A stretch of DNA of 42,101 nt, from assembly GCA_947496065.1 (NCBI GenBank), contig CANMBF010000023.1, positions 1 to 42,101 on the forward strand. The letters are read 5' to 3'. The notes under the pieces are model-generated. The model saw nothing but the letters and a program-made list of their open reading frames with translations, searched no databases and had not been told where the DNA came from. This DNA comes from Bacteroidota bacterium (GTDB lineage Bacteria; Bacteroidota; Bacteroidia; NS11-12g; UBA955). Below, piece after piece: positions 13,817 to 33,157 of this stretch (position 1 is its first letter; each line of letters starts with the position of its first letter). A program made the position numbers and the translations under genes.

Positions 13817-16800
13817 TTAATTCATCAAGGTTATTTTGTGGGTTGATTTACCTTGAGTTGAAATAACAGTAATAAAGTAGACACCCATTGCATTTCCTGT
13901 TAAGTCAATTTGTTCGCTGTATGCTGCATTGTAAATCATTTTCCCCTCTGCATTTGTAATCAGTATTTGTGTACCAATGGCATTTTCTAATTGAATAGTG
14001 AGTGGACCGATGGTTGGATTTGGAAATACATTTGTACTTGAAACTTTATTGATGGCAAGTAAGTTGGTTGATTTAAAAGATTTACAAATGAAGGATTCGG
14101 AGAATACGGTACAAGTTCCATTCGAAATTCTAACAGTATAATCTCCATTTTCTGTCATGGTATACTGAGGTTTTGTAGCGCCCGGAATTTCAGTTCCATT
14201 CAAATACCATTGCACGTTTATTTTCACACTGCAGGTTAATGTATTTTGGCTAACAGTAATAATTGGAGTCTTAGGCAATGGATTTACAACAACAATAATT
14301 GGATCAGAAGTATTCGAACATTGTTTATAATCAGTAATTGTTACTGTGTAAATACCAGGAGCATCTACCAAGATATTTTGCACTTCTTCGTTATTATTCC
14401 ATAAATATGTATTGGAAACATTGGCACTTAACACCACAGACTCACCTTCACAAAATGTCGTAGGCCCATCGGGTGTAATAAGTACTTTTGGCAAGCTGTT
14501 TACTTTTATTGTTAATGGATATGAGATTGCTTTACAGCCGTTCTTATCTGTAACCAAAACTGCATAGTTACCTGCATCACCAATGTTTATTTCGGGCTTC
14601 GTTGACATATTATTCCATACATACGCATTGTATGTTCCAACGGATAATTTAACAGAGTCACCAACACAAATTTCTGGTGATTTATTAGTTGCGATTGTAG
14701 GCCTAGCAGGTAAAGTATTCACTTTAACAGTCGTTGGTAATGAGCTAGCAGTACAGCCATTTGAATCTACTGTCGTTACGACCATTATAACACTCGACTT
14801 AACCACAACTGAAGCATTTACTGCTAAAGAATTCCAAATATATTGTTTAGCATTTGAACTTTTTAGAATCACTGAATCGCCTTGACAAAATGTTGTTGAG
14901 CTTAATGGAATAACAATTGGCACAATCGGTTTATTGATTAGCACCTTAATATTTCTTGCAGTCGCAGAGCATCCCATTCCATCTGTAACTATAACATTAT
15001 ACAAGCCAGATTTTTTTGCAATTAATTGTTGCGTTGTTACTCCAGTATTCCAAAGGTATGCTTGTCCAACATTAGCGGTTAAAATCACTGAGTCACCATC
15101 GCATAAAACCGGTGATTGCTGTAATGTAATTTCTGCTAATGGCAACTGGTTCACTTGCACAAGAGTGATATTTGATTTTGATGAACAGCCATTTACATCG
15201 GTTATAAAGACATCAAATTGTCCACTATTTTTTACCACTATTGAAGCAGTTGTTGCTTTTGAATTCCATAAGAAGCTTTTGGCGCTGCTTGAAGTTAAAG
15301 TTACCGAATCGCCTTCACAAAAAGTTGTAGAACCATTCGCAGTAATTGTAGCCATCGGTAACGGATTAACATGCACAATGTTATTACTTGATGTTGCAGA
15401 ACAACTATTTTGATCAGTAACGGTAACATTGTACAATCCGCTTATTTTTATTTTGATATTCGCTGTTTGTTCGCCGTTGTTCCACAAGTAGGCATTAGCA
15501 GCAGTAGCTGTTAGTATCACTGAATCGCCATCGCAAAATGTTTGAGCGCCATTGGCTGTAATTGTAACTGAAGGCAAAGCATTTACTGTCACGCTTGTTG
15601 CTGTTGATGTATTTGAACAACTGTTATTGTCTGTAATTTTAACTAAGAAATTACCGCTAGCTTTTACTTTAATACTTTGAATAGTTGCGCCTGAGCTCCA
15701 TAAATAAGCATTGGCAGCAATAGATGTTAATGTTACAGAATCGCCTTGACAAAATGTTTTTGATCCACTGGCAGTGATAGTTGCTGTTGGCAAACTATTC
15801 ACAACAATGCTAGAACTAGCTGAGGTATTTGAACAGCCATTGGCATCGGTTATTTTAACTGAATAACTTCCTGCAGTTTTTGCTTTGATACTTTGACTAG
15901 TTGCGCCTGAGCGCCATAAATACGCTTTTGCTGCAGTCGATGTTAATGTTACAGAATCGCCTTGACAAAATGTTTTTGATCCACTGGCAGTGATAGTTGG
16001 CGCTGATGGATTACTATTTGAGGTAACACTTGTGCTCGTAGAAGTAGCAGAGCACCCAACGCCATTGCTAATGGTAACGCTGTAACTTCCGGCAGTTTTA
16101 ACAATTATGCTTTGTGAAGTCGCGCCATTGCTCCATGCATAAGCAGAAGCTGTACTTGATGTTAAGATAACTGAATCGCCAGTGCATAAAGCAGTTGAGC
16201 GACTAGCAGAAATGGTGGGTGTGGCTGGCGAACCATTCGCATTGACACTTATTGCGTTTGAGATTGCAGAACAACCACTCGCATTGGTTACTTTAACTGA
16301 GTAGGTACCTGTAGTTGAAATAGTGATGCTGCGAGTGTTAGCTCCATTGCTCCATAAGTAAGTTTTAGCAGTATCAGCCGTTAATATTACCGACCCTCCA
16401 GAACAAAAGGTGGTCGGACCGCCTGCCGCAATTTTAGCAACTGGATAAGCCGAAACATTCACTACTGTTTGAGCCGATGTACCAACACAACCTTGTGCTG
16501 ATTTAGTTTTTACACTATAAGACCCAGCCGTTTTTACTTTAATACTTGCGCTCGTATCGCCTGTACTCCACAGATTAGAATAAGAAGCGGAGGAAGTGAG
16601 TATAACAGAATCACCTGTGCATAAAACTGTAGAACGACTTGCACTGATGGTTGGAATGGTTGCAGCTAAGACTTTTATTTTCGTTGTATCCGATGGCACC
16701 ACACAACCTGTATTATCTTTTATACTTACAAAAAAATTACCGGTTGCTTTTACTTTAATGCTTCTGCTTGTATCGCCTGTACTCCATTTGTTCGGACCAA

Positions 16801-18973
16801 CACTCGATGCAGTTAGCACCACCGAGTCACCCTGACATATTGAATAAGATCCTTTCACAGCGATGGTTGGAACACTTGGCGCGTTGGGAATGAATTTCAA
16901 TTTCTGAACCGATACAGAGCGGTCGTAATTACTTGCGCCACCCCAAAAATGCAATTTTATACTTGCAGGTTTTTTCCAATTACTTTTGGCATCAAACAAT
17001 TTTACTTTTATAGGGGTAAAATTTCCATAAGAGAAGAGCACACCTGTGCTATCTGTTAAAATCTCAAAAGGTTGATCAATATTAGTAATACCTCTCATTT
17101 TCAAATCAGGAAAATTAACAATGGCAGTGCCATTGCATTTTACTTGGGTAGGATAAGATGCATTCACCATTGAAAGTTCGTTGGTTACTCTGCTAATGAT
17201 TTTGCCTTGGTCGTCGACAATATCAAAATAACTGGCGCCATATTGATCCCATGAGGCCGTATTGCCTGTATAGTTGATAGCTCCTGTTACTTTCCATGAT
17301 TTGATACAAGCCACGGGTTTTCCTAAATCGCGGGTCACATAATAGACGCTATCATTTCTATTTCTTCTAAAGAAAATTGAAATATCTGGATTGTCTTTTT
17401 TAATAGATTGCACATTGGTTTTAACCGACCAAAATTCATCCTTGCTATAATTTAAAATATCTTCATTAAGCGGATTTCTGTTCCAACCATAAGTGCCATT
17501 TTCTAACACCGAAAGGTAAGGCAAGCCTTCCATCAAATCGACACCTGCATTGTTATCAGGAAACGCTGATGGTATAAGATTCGCAGAAGGAATGATTTGT
17601 TTTGCTTGGCTGGTGCTCGACCATGAAAGGGTTGCAGTACCGCCTTTTACATCCATTCTCACGTTGTAACCTTTACCCGCTTCAAGTTTAATTGAAGTGA
17701 TATAACTGTATTGATTTTGACTTGCATTTTTCCATTGATCAATCACTAATGTATTATCAATCCATAACCTCACACCTTTATTAGTGTTAGTGTAAAAAGT
17801 ATACACTTGATTGTATTTAGGTTTTACAAAACCTGTCCAACGGGCTGAAAAACTAGTTGGATTATTGAGTTGAGGTGGGGTAGCCGAAAGATTAACAATG
17901 GTATCAACCCTTGTCAATTTGCGACTAAAACTATTTAAGTCTGTACCATCAAAATAAACGGCTGTCAATCCGCCATTCACAATGGTATTACTAATATAAA
18001 TGGTTTGCTCATTGATGGTATTCAAACCACTCACTTTCCATCTGTGTACACCACCATGTACACTTTCATCATTGTGATAAATATAATAATCAGACCCCGA
18101 TTTCACAATTGTAGCTGAAAATACATTACCTGCACACATGGGCGCTGACTGCCTGGTTTCTGCAAAAAGAGAAGGGATTCCAAACTGACCAATCATCAAA
18201 CCATTGTCATAAACATGGTTCCAAATATTGGTTTGGCTATTTTTCCAAAACTCACCATGGTAATTCCAAAATATATTTTTGTCGACTGCATAAACATGTC
18301 CACCAGGGTATTCGACATTGTTACCAATATCGTATCCTCCATCGGCCGGAAAAACGCCTTTATAGGCTTTGTTTGTCGCCATGGCAGTTTTCCACAAATA
18401 GCTTGTGTCACCTGTTTTAACTGCACCCAAATGATAGCCATCGCCTGTTCTACCCGGATTGAATACAACCAACATATTTGAACTTGTAATTTCCGGATAA
18501 GAACTTTCAGAATATGCCGGATCCAATGCTTGTATCACTGGCAATTTGGCCAAGGTGTCTATTTTACCCCAAACTGGATTGCCTGCAGTATCATAACTAT
18601 TTAACTTGCGGTATTCCCAATGGCCTTTGTTCCCTATTACATTGGTGGTTACCATTTTTATTAAATCACCCGCAGGCGTCATAATATCTTTGCTAAATGC
18701 TTTGAGCATAACGCCTGTATAACGAATATTGCCTGATGCACGTAACTCTACAAGCTCAGGGAACACATAACCTTTGGTACCATAATTATCTAAAAACGCG
18801 TACGTTCTTCCGTTACTAAGTGTCGTAACTTCTCTAAATATATTGGTCTTAAAATCTTGGTAATATTTTGCAACAATGCCATGCCTCCAATTCTTTACCA
18901 AAGTCCAAGAGCCGTTGTTAGGCGCCAGTGATTTTGAATAATTGATTTTAAATTCTAAATATTCATTAAACAC
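13817..18973 (-). CDS. PA14/Ig-repeat secreted protein with T9SS type A tail: C-terminal part of a gene split by an in-frame stop
   Basis: This 1718-codon frame continues, without any frameshift, the frame at 19007-20335; only a TAA at 19007-19009 separates them. The eleven codons between (SAYANENDPTR then V) read as ordinary protein. Its first ATG-like start has no signal peptide, so it is almost certainly the body of one 2172-codon gene. After a beta-rich N-terminal part, a PA14 domain lies at about residues 333-470 (LTAVYFDG, FYTNTNKGVRLWIDN). PA14 domains often bind carbohydrate. A further beta domain follows, then twelve Ig-like repeats of about 72 residues (residues ~700-1565, consensus FC-x-GDSV-x-LT ... 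YLW-x-x-G). A type A T9SS sorting domain ends it (NVFPNPTIGPLTI ... GVYFITV). It is likely surface-anchored or secreted; binding target unknown. It converges on giant gene 1. Confidence 0.85.
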   Translation of the reverse strand: MFNEYLEFKINYSKSLAPNNGSWTLVKNWRHGIVAKYYQDFKTNIFREVTTLSNGRTYAFLDNYGTKGYVFPELVELRASGNIRYTGVMLKAFSKDIMTPAGDLIKMVTTNVIGNKGHWEYRKLNSYDTAGNPVWGKIDTLAKLPVIQALDPAYSESSYPEITSSNMLVVFNPGRTGDGYHLGAVKTGDTSYLWKTAMATNKAYKGVFPADGGYDIGNNVEYPGGHVYAVDKNIFWNYHGEFWKNSQTNIWNHVYDNGLMIGQFGIPSLFAETRQSAPMCAGNVFSATIVKSGSDYYIYHNDESVHGGVHRWKVSGLNTINEQTIYISNTIVNGGLTAVYFDGTDLNSFSRKLTRVDTIVNLSATPPQLNNPTSFSARWTGFVKPKYNQVYTFYTNTNKGVRLWIDNTLVIDQWKNASQNQYSYITSIKLEAGKGYNVRMDVKGGTATLSWSSTSQAKQIIPSANLIPSAFPDNNAGVDLMEGLPYLSVLENGTYGWNRNPLNEDILNYSKDEFWSVKTNVQSIKKDNPDISIFFRRNRNDSVYYVTRDLGKPVACIKSWKVTGAINYTGNTASWDQYGASYFDIVDDQGKIISRVTNELSMVNASYPTQVKCNGTAIVNFPDLKMRGITNIDQPFEILTDSTGVLFSYGNFTPIKVKLFDAKSNWKKPASIKLHFWGGASNYDRSVSVQKLKFIPNAPSVPTIAVKGSYSICQGDSVVLTASSVGPNKWSTGDTSRSIKVKATGNFFVSIKDNTGCVVPSDTTKIKVLAATIPTISASRSTVLCTGDSVILTSSASYSNLWSTGDTSASIKVKTAGSYSVKTKSAQGCVGTSAQTVVNVSAYPVAKIAAGGPTTFCSGGSVILTADTAKTYLWSNGANTRSITISTTGTYSVKVTNASGCSAISNAISVNANGSPATPTISASRSTALCTGDSVILTSSTASAYAWSNGATSQSIIVKTAGSYSVTISNGVGCSATSTSTSVTSNSNPSAPTITASGSKTFCQGDSVTLTSTAAKAYLWRSGATSQSIKAKTAGSYSVKITDANGCSNTSASSSIVVNSLPTATITASGSKTFCQGDSVTLTSIAANAYLWSSGATIQSIKVKASGNFLVKITDNNSCSNTSTATSVTVNALPSVTITANGAQTFCDGDSVILTATAANAYLWNNGEQTANIKIKISGLYNVTVTDQNSCSATSSNNIVHVNPLPMATITANGSTTFCEGDSVTLTSSSAKSFLWNSKATTASIVVKNSGQFDVFITDVNGCSSKSNITLVQVNQLPLAEITLQQSPVLCDGDSVILTANVGQAYLWNTGVTTQQLIAKKSGLYNVIVTDGMGCSATARNIKVLINKPIVPIVIPLSSTTFCQGDSVILKSSNAKQYIWNSLAVNASVVVKSSVIMVVTTVDSNGCTASSLPTTVKVNTLPARPTIATNKSPEICVGDSVKLSVGTYNAYVWNNMSTKPEINIGDAGNYAVLVTDKNGCKAISYPLTIKVNSLPKVLITPDGPTTFCEGESVVLSANVSNTYLWNNNEEVQNILVDAPGIYTVTITDYKQCSNTSDPIIVVVNPLPKTPIITVSQNTLTCSVKINVQWYLNGTEIPGATKPQYTMTENGDYTVRISNGTCTVFSESFICKSFKSTNLLAINKVSSTNVFPNPTIGPLTIQLENAIGTQILITNAEGKMIYNAAYSEQIDLTGNAMGVYFITVISTQGKSTHKITLMN
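14275..16870 (-). repeat. Array of twelve ~216-bp Ig-like coding repeats
   Basis: Twelve in-frame units of about 72 codons encode the pattern [PS]-x-I-x-A-x-G-x-x-x-FC-x-GDSV-x-LT. Neighbouring units show recent homogenization: 61 bp at 15723-15783 recurs identically at 15939-15999, exactly 216 bp apart, while surrounding sequence differs. Confidence 0.85.
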
Positions 18974-19006
18974 CCTTGTAGGATCATTCTCATTGGCATA
19001 GGCACT

Positions 19007-20335
19007 TTAAGAATGCGGCAAATTCATCACCCTATCTACAAAGACTCTGTTGGAGGAAAAATGTTGTACACGTTCGTTACCTGGGTCACCAATCCAAAAT
19101 GAACTATCAGATTGAAAGGCAATGAAAGAACCTCTAATTTCTGTATACAAATCACTAAAATAAAATTTATCATCGTAAACAGTTGCATCAGTTTCATAGC
19201 CACCTTTTCTTCCAAGCACCCAAAGTGAATCACCATTGCTATTTTTATAGGCTTTTACTTGTTGGCTATAGCCACCATCGGCCACTAACAATTGGAAATT
19301 ATTAGGTGAAACCGCAATTCCTAGGGGATCTACCAAATTTGCAATTGATGCAATCGCAGAGGAAATAGTGCCATTTCCATTGATGGTATATTTTTGAACA
19401 GTTTTAGTACCTGTAATCATCCATAAATTATCATTGGCATCGATGCACAATTCTCTTGGCGCTGTTGCAGAAATGGTTTGAACCAATGCGCCTGTTGTTT
19501 TATTGAGAACATGAAGTTCGTTTAATTTAGCATGTGCAATTAAAAGATAATTGCCAGATTTTTGAACAGCAATGCCGCTAGGGTGGCCGTTTAAATTACT
19601 AGTGATTACATCAATGGCACTTTTGTATGTGCGTCCCCAAGCTGTACCTACTGAACTACCGCTGGTAAAAGCAGCTTCATTATCATTAGAAACTTTTGTT
19701 GCATAGACAAACGAAGTCGTCGCATTCACGGGATCGAGACCCGCCCAATACACCAATTTACCATCGGTGGCTACATGGTTGGCCTCATGACCAGTTCCAT
19801 AATCTTGCATAATACTGGTTTTACTTTGTGGATGTTTAAAATCTAATTTATGTGCGCTTGTAGACCCTTCACTATAACCCACTCCGAAGTAAGCTGTGTC
19901 ATTGTTAACCGCCATCGTACACATTCTTTTAAAAGTATGGATCTTTGAGACGCCAATGAGAGAATCGGAGGTATTTCCTAATACATTTTGCCATTCATAT
20001 TGCACATTATTCGATACTAGTTTTACAACATAACCTGTATCAGATATCAAACGACCTGCATCATCTCTCCTGTCCCAAGCGCCTTTGTTTGTTCCTGCTG
20101 GATAGTTGACATTATTCCATAAAGTTCTTACCAAGGTGCCATTCTTTTTATAAACACCTGCACTCGTTTTACTTGCGCTGCTTAAAGAAAATGTAAAAGT
20201 TACAGGGGCATTTTGAGCACTTAGTATAGAAATGGAAAATAGTAAAAATAAAAAAATCGAAAGTCCCGTTTTGAGATCAACGGATTTTTTTGTAAGCCAT
20301 CGCTTACTAAATACTTGTAGTTTTTTAGTTTTCAT
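19007..20335 (-). CDS. FlgD-like/NHL-propeller secreted protein: N-terminal part of the split gene
   Basis: The 442-codon N-terminal portion of the gene that continues at 13817-18973. It has a long N-region followed by a hydrophobic signal segment (GLSIFLFLLFSISILSAQ, about residues 24-41). A FlgD Ig-like domain comes next (TLVRTLWNNVNYPAGTNKG, WDRRDDAGR, about 50-110). A beta-propeller-like region of NHL type then runs to the end, with repeated HPSGIAV, LCIDANDNLWM, LGIAVSPNNFQLLVADGG and IGDPGNERVQHF motifs. Translation stops at TAA 19007-19009 immediately after MNLPHS. A product ending here would be secreted to the periplasm but lack the T9SS sorting tail, and so would probably not reach the surface. 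I saw no exact -7 box upstream. Confidence 0.82.
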   Translation of the reverse strand: MKTKKLQVFSKRWLTKKSVDLKTGLSIFLFLLFSISILSAQNAPVTFTFSLSSASKTSAGVYKKNGTLVRTLWNNVNYPAGTNKGAWDRRDDAGRLISDTGYVVKLVSNNVQYEWQNVLGNTSDSLIGVSKIHTFKRMCTMAVNNDTAYFGVGYSEGSTSAHKLDFKHPQSKTSIMQDYGTGHEANHVATDGKLVYWAGLDPVNATTSFVYATKVSNDNEAAFTSGSSVGTAWGRTYKSAIDVITSNLNGHPSGIAVQKSGNYLLIAHAKLNELHVLNKTTGALVQTISATAPRELCIDANDNLWMITGTKTVQKYTINGNGTISSAIASIANLVDPLGIAVSPNNFQLLVADGGYSQQVKAYKNSNGDSLWVLGRKGGYETDATVYDDKFYFSDLYTEIRGSFIAFQSDSSFWIGDPGNERVQHFSSNRVFVDRVMNLPHS

Positions 20336-21092: not shown

Positions 21093-21806
21093 TCACTGCT
21101 TACTTTCTGCAGCTGCCACCAAAGCCCTCACCTCCTCCACCCCACTCACCTGAACCATTTCTTGAAAAACTAAATTACCCATACCAACATTACTCGGTAA
21201 ATTAATTTTACAAGTTGCATGCAATTCAGTGCAACTGGTTACTTCTATAATTTCTTTTGCATTCGCAGCTGTTACACCCGCTCCTGGCAAAATATTTATT
21301 ACATGACCTAAGGCAGTTTGCATCTGCTTTAAGACAGGCAAGCCTTGCATTACATTTAGTGCACCACCGCTGCTTAAGATACGCTCGAATCCCAAATCGG
21401 CAATGGTATAGGCCGCTTGCATTATATCTGCACTGCGGTCGATGGCACGATGAAAAGTGGCCGGACCACCCCAAGCGTCTAATAACATTTTATTAATGGC
21501 TTTATCCACCGCACCTTTTTCATTTAAACAACCAAACACAATGCCCGCTACATCGATCTTTTTGCATATTTCAATATCATACAACATGGCCTCTATTTCA
21601 TATGTGCTATAATGAAAGTTGCCGCCGCGGGGCCTAATCATGACATACGCTGGCAACTCTAATTGCTTTACCAAATGCATCACACCTGCCGATGGGGTAC
21701 AACCGCCCTCTGCCAAATTCTCGAACAACTCAATGCGATGCGCACCACCCTTTACTGCATTTAATGCCGATTGGTAACCATTACAGGCAATCTCTATTTT
21801 AATCAT
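21093..21806 (-). CDS. cutC: CutC family protein
   Basis: A 237-residue TIM-barrel protein of the CutC family, historically linked to copper homeostasis, though its enzymatic role is not settled. Family motifs are clear: IEIACNGYQSA at the N-terminus, GAHRIELFENLAEGGCTPS (about residues 21-39), YVMIRPRGGNFHYS, GIVFGCLNEKGAVD, ATFHRAIDR and ILSSGGA. Length is normal. Its ATG overlaps by ATGA with the ancestral stop of the upstream asparaginase-like gene, a hallmark of translational coupling, so the two formed an operon. With the upstream frame now ending 131 bases earlier, coupling may be impaired. Confidence 0.93.
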   Translation of the reverse strand: MIKIEIACNGYQSALNAVKGGAHRIELFENLAEGGCTPSAGVMHLVKQLELPAYVMIRPRGGNFHYSTYEIEAMLYDIEICKKIDVAGIVFGCLNEKGAVDKAINKMLLDAWGGPATFHRAIDRSADIMQAAYTIADLGFERILSSGGALNVMQGLPVLKQMQTALGHVINILPGAGVTAANAKEIIEVTSCTELHATCKINLPSNVGMGNLVFQEMVQVSGVEEVRALVAAAESKQ

Positions 21807-21937
21807 AAAATGAATTTCGTTTTGACTTGTTGGGTATTAGTTCCCACTTGTGTGACGCCAAAATCAAATCCATCGTGTAAGGCATAAGCGCCATATTCTC
21901 CTTTTTTATTAATGGCAATAAATCCCACTTGAATATT
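21803..21937 (-). pseudogene. Detached C-terminal 44 codons of the asparaginase-like gene
   Basis: Directly after the TAA at 21938-21940 the same frame runs for 44 more codons (NIQVGFIAINKKGEYGAYAL, then HDGFDFGV) to a TGA at 21803-21805. This is recognizably the normal C-terminal end of glycosylasparaginase-type enzymes. The TGA overlaps the cutC ATG as ATGA. Confidence 0.85.
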
Positions 21938-22822
21938 TTATCTATCGCGTGGTGTTTTGGCTTTACTGCGCTCCACCGCTTTTTTACAAGCTTGTTCGGG
22001 CGAGTGGCCTTGGCGCATCAATTCAACCACTAAAAAGCTCCCACAAATGCGGATCACCTCTTCGCCATGACCAGTTGCAGTAGCGGCACCCACCTCATTA
22101 TCGACATACAAACCCGCACCTATAATGGGCGAGTCGCCTAACCTACCGCGCATTTTAAAACCCATACCACTGGTCGTACAAGCACCACTCAAATTACCTT
22201 CCGCATCCATGGCGATCATGCCGATGGTATCGTGATTAAATTCTCCCGACTCCATGGGATCGGGCATGTGTGGACCGCCTTGTTTTTCAATATTCATGAT
22301 GGGTTGGTACTCGCTTTTTTTCAACCATTCGTCATATGATTTTTGCGCATGGTCGCTCAAAACTTCTTTTTCTAAAGCTGCACCTTGCGATACCGCAAAT
22401 TCTTGCGCACCCAAACCCACCAACATCACATGGGGCGTTTTTTCCATCACCAATCGCGCAGTGTGGATCGGACTTTTAATACGTTCTAATGCAGCTACCG
22501 CGCCAATTTCATAGCGGTGGTTCATAATGCTGGCATCGAGGGTCACATGCCCTTCGCGGTCGGGATTAGCGCCCAAACCTACACAGCAATTGCCCCAATC
22601 ATTTTCGCTTACTTGCACACCTGCTTCAACCGCATCGAGTGCAGTGCCTTTGGCTTCTAATATTTTCCAGGCAGCCAGATTGGCCGTAACCGATTGGTTG
22701 TACCAAGTACTTAAAACCAATGGCCCTTTCACTTTTTTATTAGTTGCTGAAAAGGCTTTATTACCAATACCTGCAGCAATGGTTCCTAAGCCCAATAATT
22801 TAATTAATTCTCTGCGTTGCAT
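21938..22822 (-). CDS. Glycosylasparaginase / isoaspartyl peptidase-like enzyme, ended early by an in-frame TAA
   Basis: A 294-codon frame of the N-terminal-nucleophile hydrolase family that cleaves N4-(beta-N-acetylglucosaminyl)-L-asparagine or related amides. MQRRELIKLLGLG at the N-terminus resembles a twin-arginine signal, suggesting export. The autoprocessing site is visible as NHDTIG, with T199 the expected nucleophile freed by D198-T199 cleavage. GRLGDSP (R227, D230) and TGHGEE (250-255) are further active-site motifs. The frame stops after KTPRDR at TAA 21938-21940, yet the family's last strands are encoded in the next 44 codons. Loss of these probably destabilizes the fold. A change such as AAA to TAA would explain it, because KNIQ would read naturally. 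It precedes cutC in an apparent operon. Confidence 0.85.
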   Translation of the reverse strand: MQRRELIKLLGLGTIAAGIGNKAFSATNKKVKGPLVLSTWYNQSVTANLAAWKILEAKGTALDAVEAGVQVSENDWGNCCVGLGANPDREGHVTLDASIMNHRYEIGAVAALERIKSPIHTARLVMEKTPHVMLVGLGAQEFAVSQGAALEKEVLSDHAQKSYDEWLKKSEYQPIMNIEKQGGPHMPDPMESGEFNHDTIGMIAMDAEGNLSGACTTSGMGFKMRGRLGDSPIIGAGLYVDNEVGAATATGHGEEVIRICGSFLVVELMRQGHSPEQACKKAVERSKAKTPRDR

Positions 22823-31307: not shown

Positions 31308-31805
31308 ATGAAAAATGTAATATCAATACTAGGCGTATGCTTTGCTTTTGCCTTTTTAATAACAACGCAGTCGTGTAAAAAGGATAAGGCATTAACAGAT
31401 GAAGCAACCATTGAGAAGGCCCTTGATGAATTTGTAACAGACCTGCAATCGCGACCCGCCAATACAAGCGATATTTCTGCCAGGGTTAGAAATTACATGG
31501 CGCGTCGACCCGTCCTATTTTATGGCTCAACAGTTACTTTATTAGATTCCACAAAAAAAGCTATTTCAAGTCCTTATTGGTACCTGCAAAATGACACCTT
31601 GGCTTATGCCAATTTAATGGATACAGCTTATCACATAGACACCCAGTTATGGTTGCGAGGGAGCATAGATGGTGGCGCACCGACATGGTCGGCCCCTTAT
31701 TTTGATTCGGGTGGCGGCAATGTATGGATGAAAACCCGCACGGTTCCTATTTACATCAACGGAAAAATAAAAGCTGTTGCAACGACAGACATGCATTTGA
31801 AATAA
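31308..31805 (+). CDS. Lipid-anchored stand-alone Cache/PDC-like sensor domain
   Basis: A 165-residue protein with lipoprotein signal MKNVISILGVCFAFAFLI ending TTQSC. The rest resembles a single extracellular Cache (PDC-type) module of the kind found outside the membrane in RsbU-type phosphatases, cyclases and chemoreceptors. It has NYMARRPVLFYGSTVTLLDS, SSPYWYLQNDTLAYANL, then PTWSAPYFDSGGGNVWM and VPIYINGKIKAVATTD. The PYFD-x-GGGN and GK-x-x-x-VAT-x-D patterns are the conserved core that in relatives binds small ligands. There is no transmembrane helix or output domain, so if it senses something it must act through a partner. The frame opens at ATG 31266; I chose ATG 31308, where the signal peptide begins. 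The 3' end is duplicated at 32950-33025. Confidence 0.72.
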   Translation: MKNVISILGVCFAFAFLITTQSCKKDKALTDEATIEKALDEFVTDLQSRPANTSDISARVRNYMARRPVLFYGSTVTLLDSTKKAISSPYWYLQNDTLAYANLMDTAYHIDTQLWLRGSIDGGAPTWSAPYFDSGGGNVWMKTRTVPIYINGKIKAVATTDMHLK

Positions 31806-31830
31806 GTTAAGTCGCTGCGTGTATTGTTGG
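31774..31830 (+). repeat. Direct repeat copy 1 (3' end of Cache-like gene and flank)
   Basis: 57 bp covering the last codons of the Cache-like gene and 25 bp beyond it. It matches 32969-33025 with one mismatch; the last 44 bp (31787-31830 against 32982-33025) are identical. Confidence 0.9.
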
Positions 31831-31884
31831 TGCTTTTTGCTGCGCAGGAGGACAGTTGGCAGTTGGCAATTGGCAGTTGGCAAA
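31824..31884. repeat. Intergenic repeat with GGCAGTTGGCA words, copy 1
   Basis: 31824-31860 matches 32011-32047 over 37 bp with three differences, all transitions. Copy 1 continues into a GACAGTTGGCAGTTGGCAAT-type run at 31852-31884, the same word family seen at 2587-2693. Confidence 0.8.
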
Positions 31885-32010
31885 GAAAAACCAATACCTG
31901 TCAATGACAACAGCTCCTTCGAAAACGTATTGGCTTTCCTAAAATTATGTAGTTTCTCTACAATCTCGGATTATAAATCAAAAAATTTACAAATCTTAAA
32001 ATCTTCGCCA

Positions 32011-32050
32011 TTGTTGGTGTTTTTTGCTACGCAGGAGGATAGTTGGCAAT
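32011..32050. repeat. Intergenic repeat with GGCAGTTGGCA words, copy 2
   Basis: Second copy of the 37-bp element at 31824-31860, ending in GATAGTTGGCAAT. It lies about 45 bases before the toxin-antitoxin promoter. The 140-odd bases between the copies hold no gene. Confidence 0.8.
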
Positions 32051-32150: not shown

Positions 32151-32450
32151 ATGTACTTTATTGAAAAGACGCCAGAATTTGATAAATGGTTTAAGAAACT
32201 TAATGACTTGAGAGCAAAAGCACAAATTTTGTTAAGACTTCAAAAATTAGAAAAAGACGAACACTTTGGGAACTGTGAACCTGTTGGTAATGGCATAAAA
32301 GAATTGAAAATTAATTACGCAAAAGGTTACAGAGTTTATTTTAAAGAAATGGATGGGAAAATTATTATTCTGCTGATAGGAGGCGATAAATCAAAACAAC
32401 AAAAAGACATTGAAAAAGCAAAAGTCATTTGGAAAAAATTAAAAAATTAA
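32151..32450 (+). CDS. RelE/HigB-type (Gp49-like) toxin
   Basis: A 99-residue member of the phage Gp49-like HigB family within the RelE/ParE superfamily. Relatives are mostly ribosome-dependent mRNA endonucleases. Visible family features: TPEFDKWFKKLNDLRAKAQI near the N-terminus, then GNCEPVGNGIKELKINYAKG, the core strand YRVYFKE, IIILLIGGDKSKQ, and an ending helix DIEKAKVIWKKL. The G-x-KELKI and GYRVYF motifs with a GGDKS turn are characteristic of this group. It is first in the operon with the antitoxin four bases behind, the usual toxin-first order of HigBA-type modules. Confidence 0.88.
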   Translation: MYFIEKTPEFDKWFKKLNDLRAKAQILLRLQKLEKDEHFGNCEPVGNGIKELKINYAKGYRVYFKEMDGKIIILLIGGDKSKQQKDIEKAKVIWKKLKN

Positions 32451-32454
32451 AAAA

Positions 32455-32739
32455 ATGGAAACATCAAAATTTGACATTGCTGATTATTTAGACAGCAACG
32501 AAATGATAGCAGAATACCTAAATGCGGTTTTGGAAGAAGGAGATGATACAGAAATTGTCACCGCTATCGGGCATATTGCAAAAGCAATAGGCATGACCAA
32601 AATAGCTGAAGAAACTGGCATGAGCAGACCAAGTTTGTACAAAGCCTTGTCTGAGGGAGCGAAGCCACAATTTTCAACAATAATGAAGGTCTTGAAAGCA
32701 GTGGGCGGGCAAATACATATAAACCCATTAATTACTTAA
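32455..32739 (+). CDS. HigA-type antitoxin with helix-turn-helix
   Basis: A 94-residue partner of the toxin, of the 'probable addiction module antidote' family. The N-terminal part (DIADYLDSNEMIAEYLNAVL, then EEGDD) is typical. A Cro/C1-type helix-turn-helix follows at about residues 40-75 (GMTKIAEETGMSRPSLYKAL), ending VLKAVGGQIHINPL. It should bind and neutralize the toxin and repress the operon, perhaps through the palindrome at 32131-32144. The stop TAA at 32737-32739 is followed, in the same frame, by a T9SS tail relic. Confidence 0.88.
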   Translation: METSKFDIADYLDSNEMIAEYLNAVLEEGDDTEIVTAIGHIAKAIGMTKIAEETGMSRPSLYKALSEGAKPQFSTIMKVLKAVGGQIHINPLIT

Positions 32740-32949: not shown

Positions 32950-33025
32950 TTTACATGAATGGAAAAAACTGTTGCAACGGCAGACATGCATTTGAAATAA
33001 GTTAAGTCGCTGCGTGTATTGTTGG
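32950..33025 (+). pseudogene. Second, frameshifted copy of the Cache-like gene 3' end
   Basis: 32950-33000 corresponds to the last codons of the 31308-31805 gene, with substitutions and a net 5-base deletion that breaks the frame. The following 25 bp (to 33025) match the sequence beyond that gene's stop. No larger body of the gene precedes it. Confidence 0.8.
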
Positions 33026-33157
33026 CATTATTTACTGCCACAAGAAAGCGAAAAGTATTTTTTCAATACTCTATCTCAAATTGATTGTAATCCATCCTTT
33101 ATTTTTTTTAAATATTTTTATTTAATTCGAAAACTTTGCACTCAAAAGCAATTGTCC

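Follow-up and report, generated by a model that had tools for sequence, protein, structure and literature searches.

A T9SS cargo gene of a Bacteroidota bacterium cut by a single in-frame TAA: broken gene or wrongly called base

Introduction

Two long open reading frames that follow each other on the minus strand raise the question whether they represent two genes, one gene broken by a nonsense change, one gene still translated across its stop, or one intact gene with a wrong base in the assembly. They are situated in the DNA stretch of 42,101 nucleotides (hereafter the window) of contig CANMBF010000023.1, assembly GCA_947496065.1. The sequence-only reading had proposed that the frames 20335-19007 and 18973-13817 are one and the same, with one TAA and eleven sense codons between them, and translation of the whole frame confirmed this. 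Positions 20335-13817 (minus strand) form a single frame of 2173 codons, in which the TAA at 19007-19009 is the sole internal stop besides the final one. Directly 3' of this TAA eleven codons spell SAYANENDPTR, and no possible start occurs before the GTG at 18973; the span 18974-19015, earlier assigned to the stop and these codons, holds both, and its coordinates and reading were right. The features of the locus are as follows.

13817..20335, minus strand: T9SS cargo gene, a 2172-codon frame cut by TAA (translation, Pfam, alignment, model)
19007..19009, minus strand: premature in-frame TAA (alignment column Tyr, TAT/TAC, in 22/24 relatives and Arg in 2/24)
19010..20335, minus strand: N-terminal piece, 442 codons, with signal-peptide-like N-terminus, FlgD_ig and first part of the propeller
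13817..19006, minus strand: C-terminal piece, 1729 sense codons and stop, with the remaining propellers, PA14, Ig-like repeats and T9SS sorting tail
21806..22822, minus strand: asparaginase_2 gene of 339 codons, likewise interrupted by a premature in-frame TAA (21938-21940; Pfam, genus-mate comparison)

Methods

Relatives of the interrupted gene were sought in 70 genomes of the family, followed by a scan of genome contigs. The predicted fold was obtained with AlphaFold2 for residues 40-830, with Tyr put in at the stop column and an alignment that included 20 relatives, and the model was searched with Foldseek. Domains were assigned with Pfam.

Further interrupted genes were looked for in a sample of this genome of approximately 656 kb, about a quarter of its length. 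The sample consisted of approximately 288 kb, including the window, that lay mostly around short frames with T9SS tails, and of 368 kb of readable sequence picked regardless of content. Four genus-mates were sampled and scanned likewise. For the rate of stops in genes not chosen beforehand, two of the interrupted genes (those on L142 and L146) were left out, as they came from stretches chosen for short tail frames.

Results

One frame, open in every relative

A frame of 2172 codons with at most one stop would arise by chance with a probability of about 10^-54, given that stops make up 5.8% of the triplets in the window, and the codon-use score is 0.095 both upstream and downstream of the TAA. 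Within the genus the gene was found in roughly twelve genomes, and none of the matches found there in the search of the 70 family genomes carries a stop; the contig scan added further relatives from Spirosoma, Niastella, Segetibacter, Leeuwenhoekiella and others. All 24 relatives compared are open across the TAA position, each as one uninterrupted frame, so that the search for relatives with two separate genes, each with its own start and signal, returned none. Of these, 22 have Tyr (TAC or TAT) in the stop column and two have Arg, and in blastp the end of the N-terminal piece and the beginning of the C-terminal piece lie one residue apart in most relatives. Because precisely one residue fills this place in the relatives, an insertion or deletion at the junction was ruled out, and the earlier suggestion that a single base change would suffice holds.

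Both halves resemble the relatives equally, with values of, for example, 0.54 and 0.57 against L041, and where 90% or more of the relatives agree in a column, the gene keeps 67/71 such columns upstream of the stop and 74/77 downstream. Since both sides are equally preserved, either the stop would be too young for decay to have set in, or the base is not real. In genome G013 the gene and the asparaginase gene are found on one contig, as in the window, and this shared neighbourhood identifies the G013 gene as the positional orthologue, even though the two are only about 54-59% identical; the propeller-PA14 T9SS gene family evolves fast. It should be noted that in several genus-mates this gene is present as neighbouring copies (L041, L042, L044). 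In the genome studied here it is single-copy, and a second copy of the propeller part is absent.

Two export signals on separate frames

The N-terminal piece begins, as judged by eye from its translation, with a basic start and a hydrophobic stretch ending in SAQNA, resembling a signal peptide; it also contains an Ig-like domain of the FlgD type and a weakly matching NHL repeat, both under the curated Pfam cut-offs. The C-terminal piece has neither a signal peptide nor a start of its own before the GTG at 18973. It carries PA14 (66 bits), Ig-like repeats and, at residues 1660-1725, a Por_Secre_tail (PF18962) scoring 35.1 bits, over the curated cut-off of 27, which bears out the T9SS tail that had been read from the translation.

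The model of residues 40-830 is all-beta and confident (mean pLDDT 87, pTM 0.86). Tandem beta-propeller proteins, e.g. EML1 and Utp21, were among its best Foldseek matches, with modest whole-length TM-scores. The stop corresponds to model residue 404, placed in a loop between two strands within the predicted tandem beta-propeller. Taken together, the abutting pieces, the one predicted fold and the conservation and codon use, which are the same before and after the stop, point to one T9SS cargo gene in which either a nonsense change arose very recently or one base is wrong.

In its signal-peptide-like N-terminus, long beta-rich body and C-terminal sorting tail, this gene is like other T9SS cargo with Por_Secre_tail, whereas here the two signals sit on separate open frames. 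According to PMC12618676, T9SS cargo requires the front Sec signal and the back C-terminal domain on one chain, and therefore neither piece should reach the surface. As a separate observation, the genome (G000, 2.9 Mb) has approximately 155 T9SS sorting tails, comprising 120 Por_Secre_tail and 39 CHU_C matches that partly overlap, a large cargo set for its size.

Other genes with single stops

The asparaginase_2 gene, with its stop 2.9 kb from that of the T9SS gene, is a second case in the same window. Its orthologues in nine genus-mates are open at the position of 21938-21940, where relatives have Lys or Glu, and the 44 codons past the TAA are still conserved. Altogether at least seven genes cut by a single in-frame stop were found in the sampled part of the genome, namely the T9SS gene, asparaginase_2 and the five following.

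L149, position 9295 (G000:C13): NMO-type gene, TAA; column Glu in 13/15 relatives, Pro in 2/15
L146, position 7536 (G000:C7): CocE-type hydrolase with T9SS tail, TAG; column Leu in 11/12 relatives, Phe in 1/12
L142, position 8259 (G000:C3): another T9SS-tail protein, TAG; variable column
L141, position 12207 (G000:C3): aminotransferase-like gene, TAA; Tyr in the one relative compared
L195, position 5368 (G000:C22): NRPS condensation domain spanning TAA; Pfam only

No frameshifts were seen beside the stops in the sampled genome, and the same scans of the four genus-mates revealed no convincing single-stop gene. Two candidates were not counted: the stop at L180, position 18744, lies directly 5' of a methionine start, and that at L234, position 1511, in genome G019 falls in a poorly aligned stretch. 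In genes not chosen beforehand, 3 stops in 40,750 codons compare with 0 in 67,587 in the four genus-mates (p = 0.05), a borderline difference, so the excess of cut genes is suggestive only. The NMO-type gene is kept in 16 of 17 genus genomes, and the asparaginase orthologue in most.

The window has a further feature apart from these genes. At 32151-32739 (plus strand) a Gp49-like protein (PF05973) and an HI1420-type addiction-module antidote (PF21716) form a likely toxin-antitoxin pair, flanked by direct repeats of 75 nt, 91% alike, at 31769-31843 and 32964-33038 (plus strand), which perhaps mark a mobile or duplicated piece. Shorter direct repeats (39 nt, 92% alike) are located at 31823-31861 and 32010-32048.

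Discussion

We consider it somewhat better than an even chance (roughly 0.55) that a real and recent nonsense substitution has cut one T9SS cargo gene, the reality of the base and the loss of function both being inferred. The change would be a single one, having occurred in the lineage or, if the sampled population is mixed, in its dominant strain. Translation would then halt at residue 442, inside the tandem beta-propeller, and give a product open to Sec export but deprived of the C-terminal T9SS signal, while the downstream 1729 codons would retain the sorting tail, but with neither an export signal nor a plausible start, and the surface protein would be lost.

The several isolated nonsense changes in the genome, of which that in the T9SS gene would be one instance, suggest that the lineage is undergoing ordinary loss-of-function drift or that selection in it has weakened, rather than that this gene has a special property, and the differing residues in the stop columns of the cut genes point at scattered mutations. 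Furthermore, private amino-acid and silent changes stand at 117:595 in this genome against 49:426 in a near relative (p = 0.003; 11 genes, with unequal branch lengths), a higher ratio on this genome's side, which is compatible with relaxed selection and would fit it rather better than random error. On the other hand, the wide retention of the NMO-type and asparaginase genes in the genus makes their real loss a little surprising. Real gene decay usually brings frameshifts as well as stops, and their lack beside these stops is a point against it.

The locus is of the same kind as recent bacterial single-nonsense pseudogenes, with which it shares the one in-frame stop, the otherwise intact conserved frame and the open orthologues; it differs in that the base is known from a draft assembly alone and that several such genes occur in one genome.

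The strongest competitor, possible though clearly less probable, is that the draft contains scattered wrong bases, owing to low local coverage or mixed strains, with this TAA among them and the gene intact in the cell. It would account for several otherwise perfect genes, some of them widely kept, each having one substitution-type stop and no frameshift, and for comparable samples of four genus-mates showing none. Moreover, every private amino-acid change in the NMO gene is an A/C or G/T exchange, a class of confusion known from short reads. Over more genes, however, these exchange classes amounted to 26/69 against 6/30 in the near relative, which is not significant (p = 0.10), and this test for a surplus of wrong bases by private changes was mixed and not decisive. 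With 4.5% of single changes in the T9SS gene producing a stop, random errors would have to reach about 5 per 10 kb to yield the stops in the non-selected genes. For an assembly that has 79 contigs, some up to approximately 200 kb long, and a completeness of 96.6%, such a rate is high. Errors of the indel type are absent, and indel errors of long reads were rejected on the same ground, no frameshifts having been seen. A literature search on stops in metagenome assemblies returned nothing usable.

Tolerated or regulated readthrough, by which low-level passage of the TAA gives some full-length surface protein, appears improbable. The conservation downstream equals that upstream (74/77 columns kept), as readthrough would predict, and in-frame stops with purifying selection downstream have been described as widespread in bacteria (PMC7918605); yet a young change stays conserved anyway, with no need of readthrough, and no UUA-anticodon tRNA was found among the 28 tRNA places of this genome, an incomplete set. 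Belinky et al. 2021 (PMC7918605) retained only stops common to two or more genomes, to exclude error. The present stop is like theirs in its constrained downstream part, but it occurs in one genome. The sequence-only reading had named a very recent nonsense mutation, strain heterogeneity, readthrough and sequencing error as possible origins; readthrough is disfavoured, as no relative shares the stop in that column, and the other three stand. A broader variant has leaky termination as a property of the lineage, in which many in-frame UAA and UAG codons would be tolerated, the cut genes would still be made at a low level and nonsense changes would accumulate across the genome; we regard this as a very unlikely explanation.

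A changed code, in which TAA (and TAG) would stand for an amino acid, could explain why a single genome has several TAA and TAG codons in frame, but it is rejected: the stop columns hold differing residues (Tyr, Lys/Glu, Glu, Leu), long frames end normally and mostly with TAA (80/106 stops), the T9SS-tail genes counted above are almost all stop-free in the matched part, and no suppressor tRNA was found in the incomplete tRNA set. The idea that two genes merely happen to share a frame, with GTG 18973 as the possible start codon of the second, can be dismissed just as firmly, for in all relatives the parts form one frame joined by one residue, the valine of that codon is internal to the conserved motif TRVFNEYLEF, the break would fall inside one predicted fold, the second part is devoid of the signal peptide that T9SS cargo needs (PMC12618676), and no promoter-like site was found on that strand.

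Conclusions

The finding is correct and ordinary, being a broken gene or a wrongly called base. The T9SS gene alone matters little; of practical use is that, with roughly a quarter of the genome sampled, at least seven genes with a single stop have come to light. Gene calls and claims of gene loss made from this genome need checking against the reads. Should the stops be read through, leaky termination in Bacteroidota could be tested on them, and should they be real, nonsense changes from which the relatives have been spared would be costing this lineage its genes.
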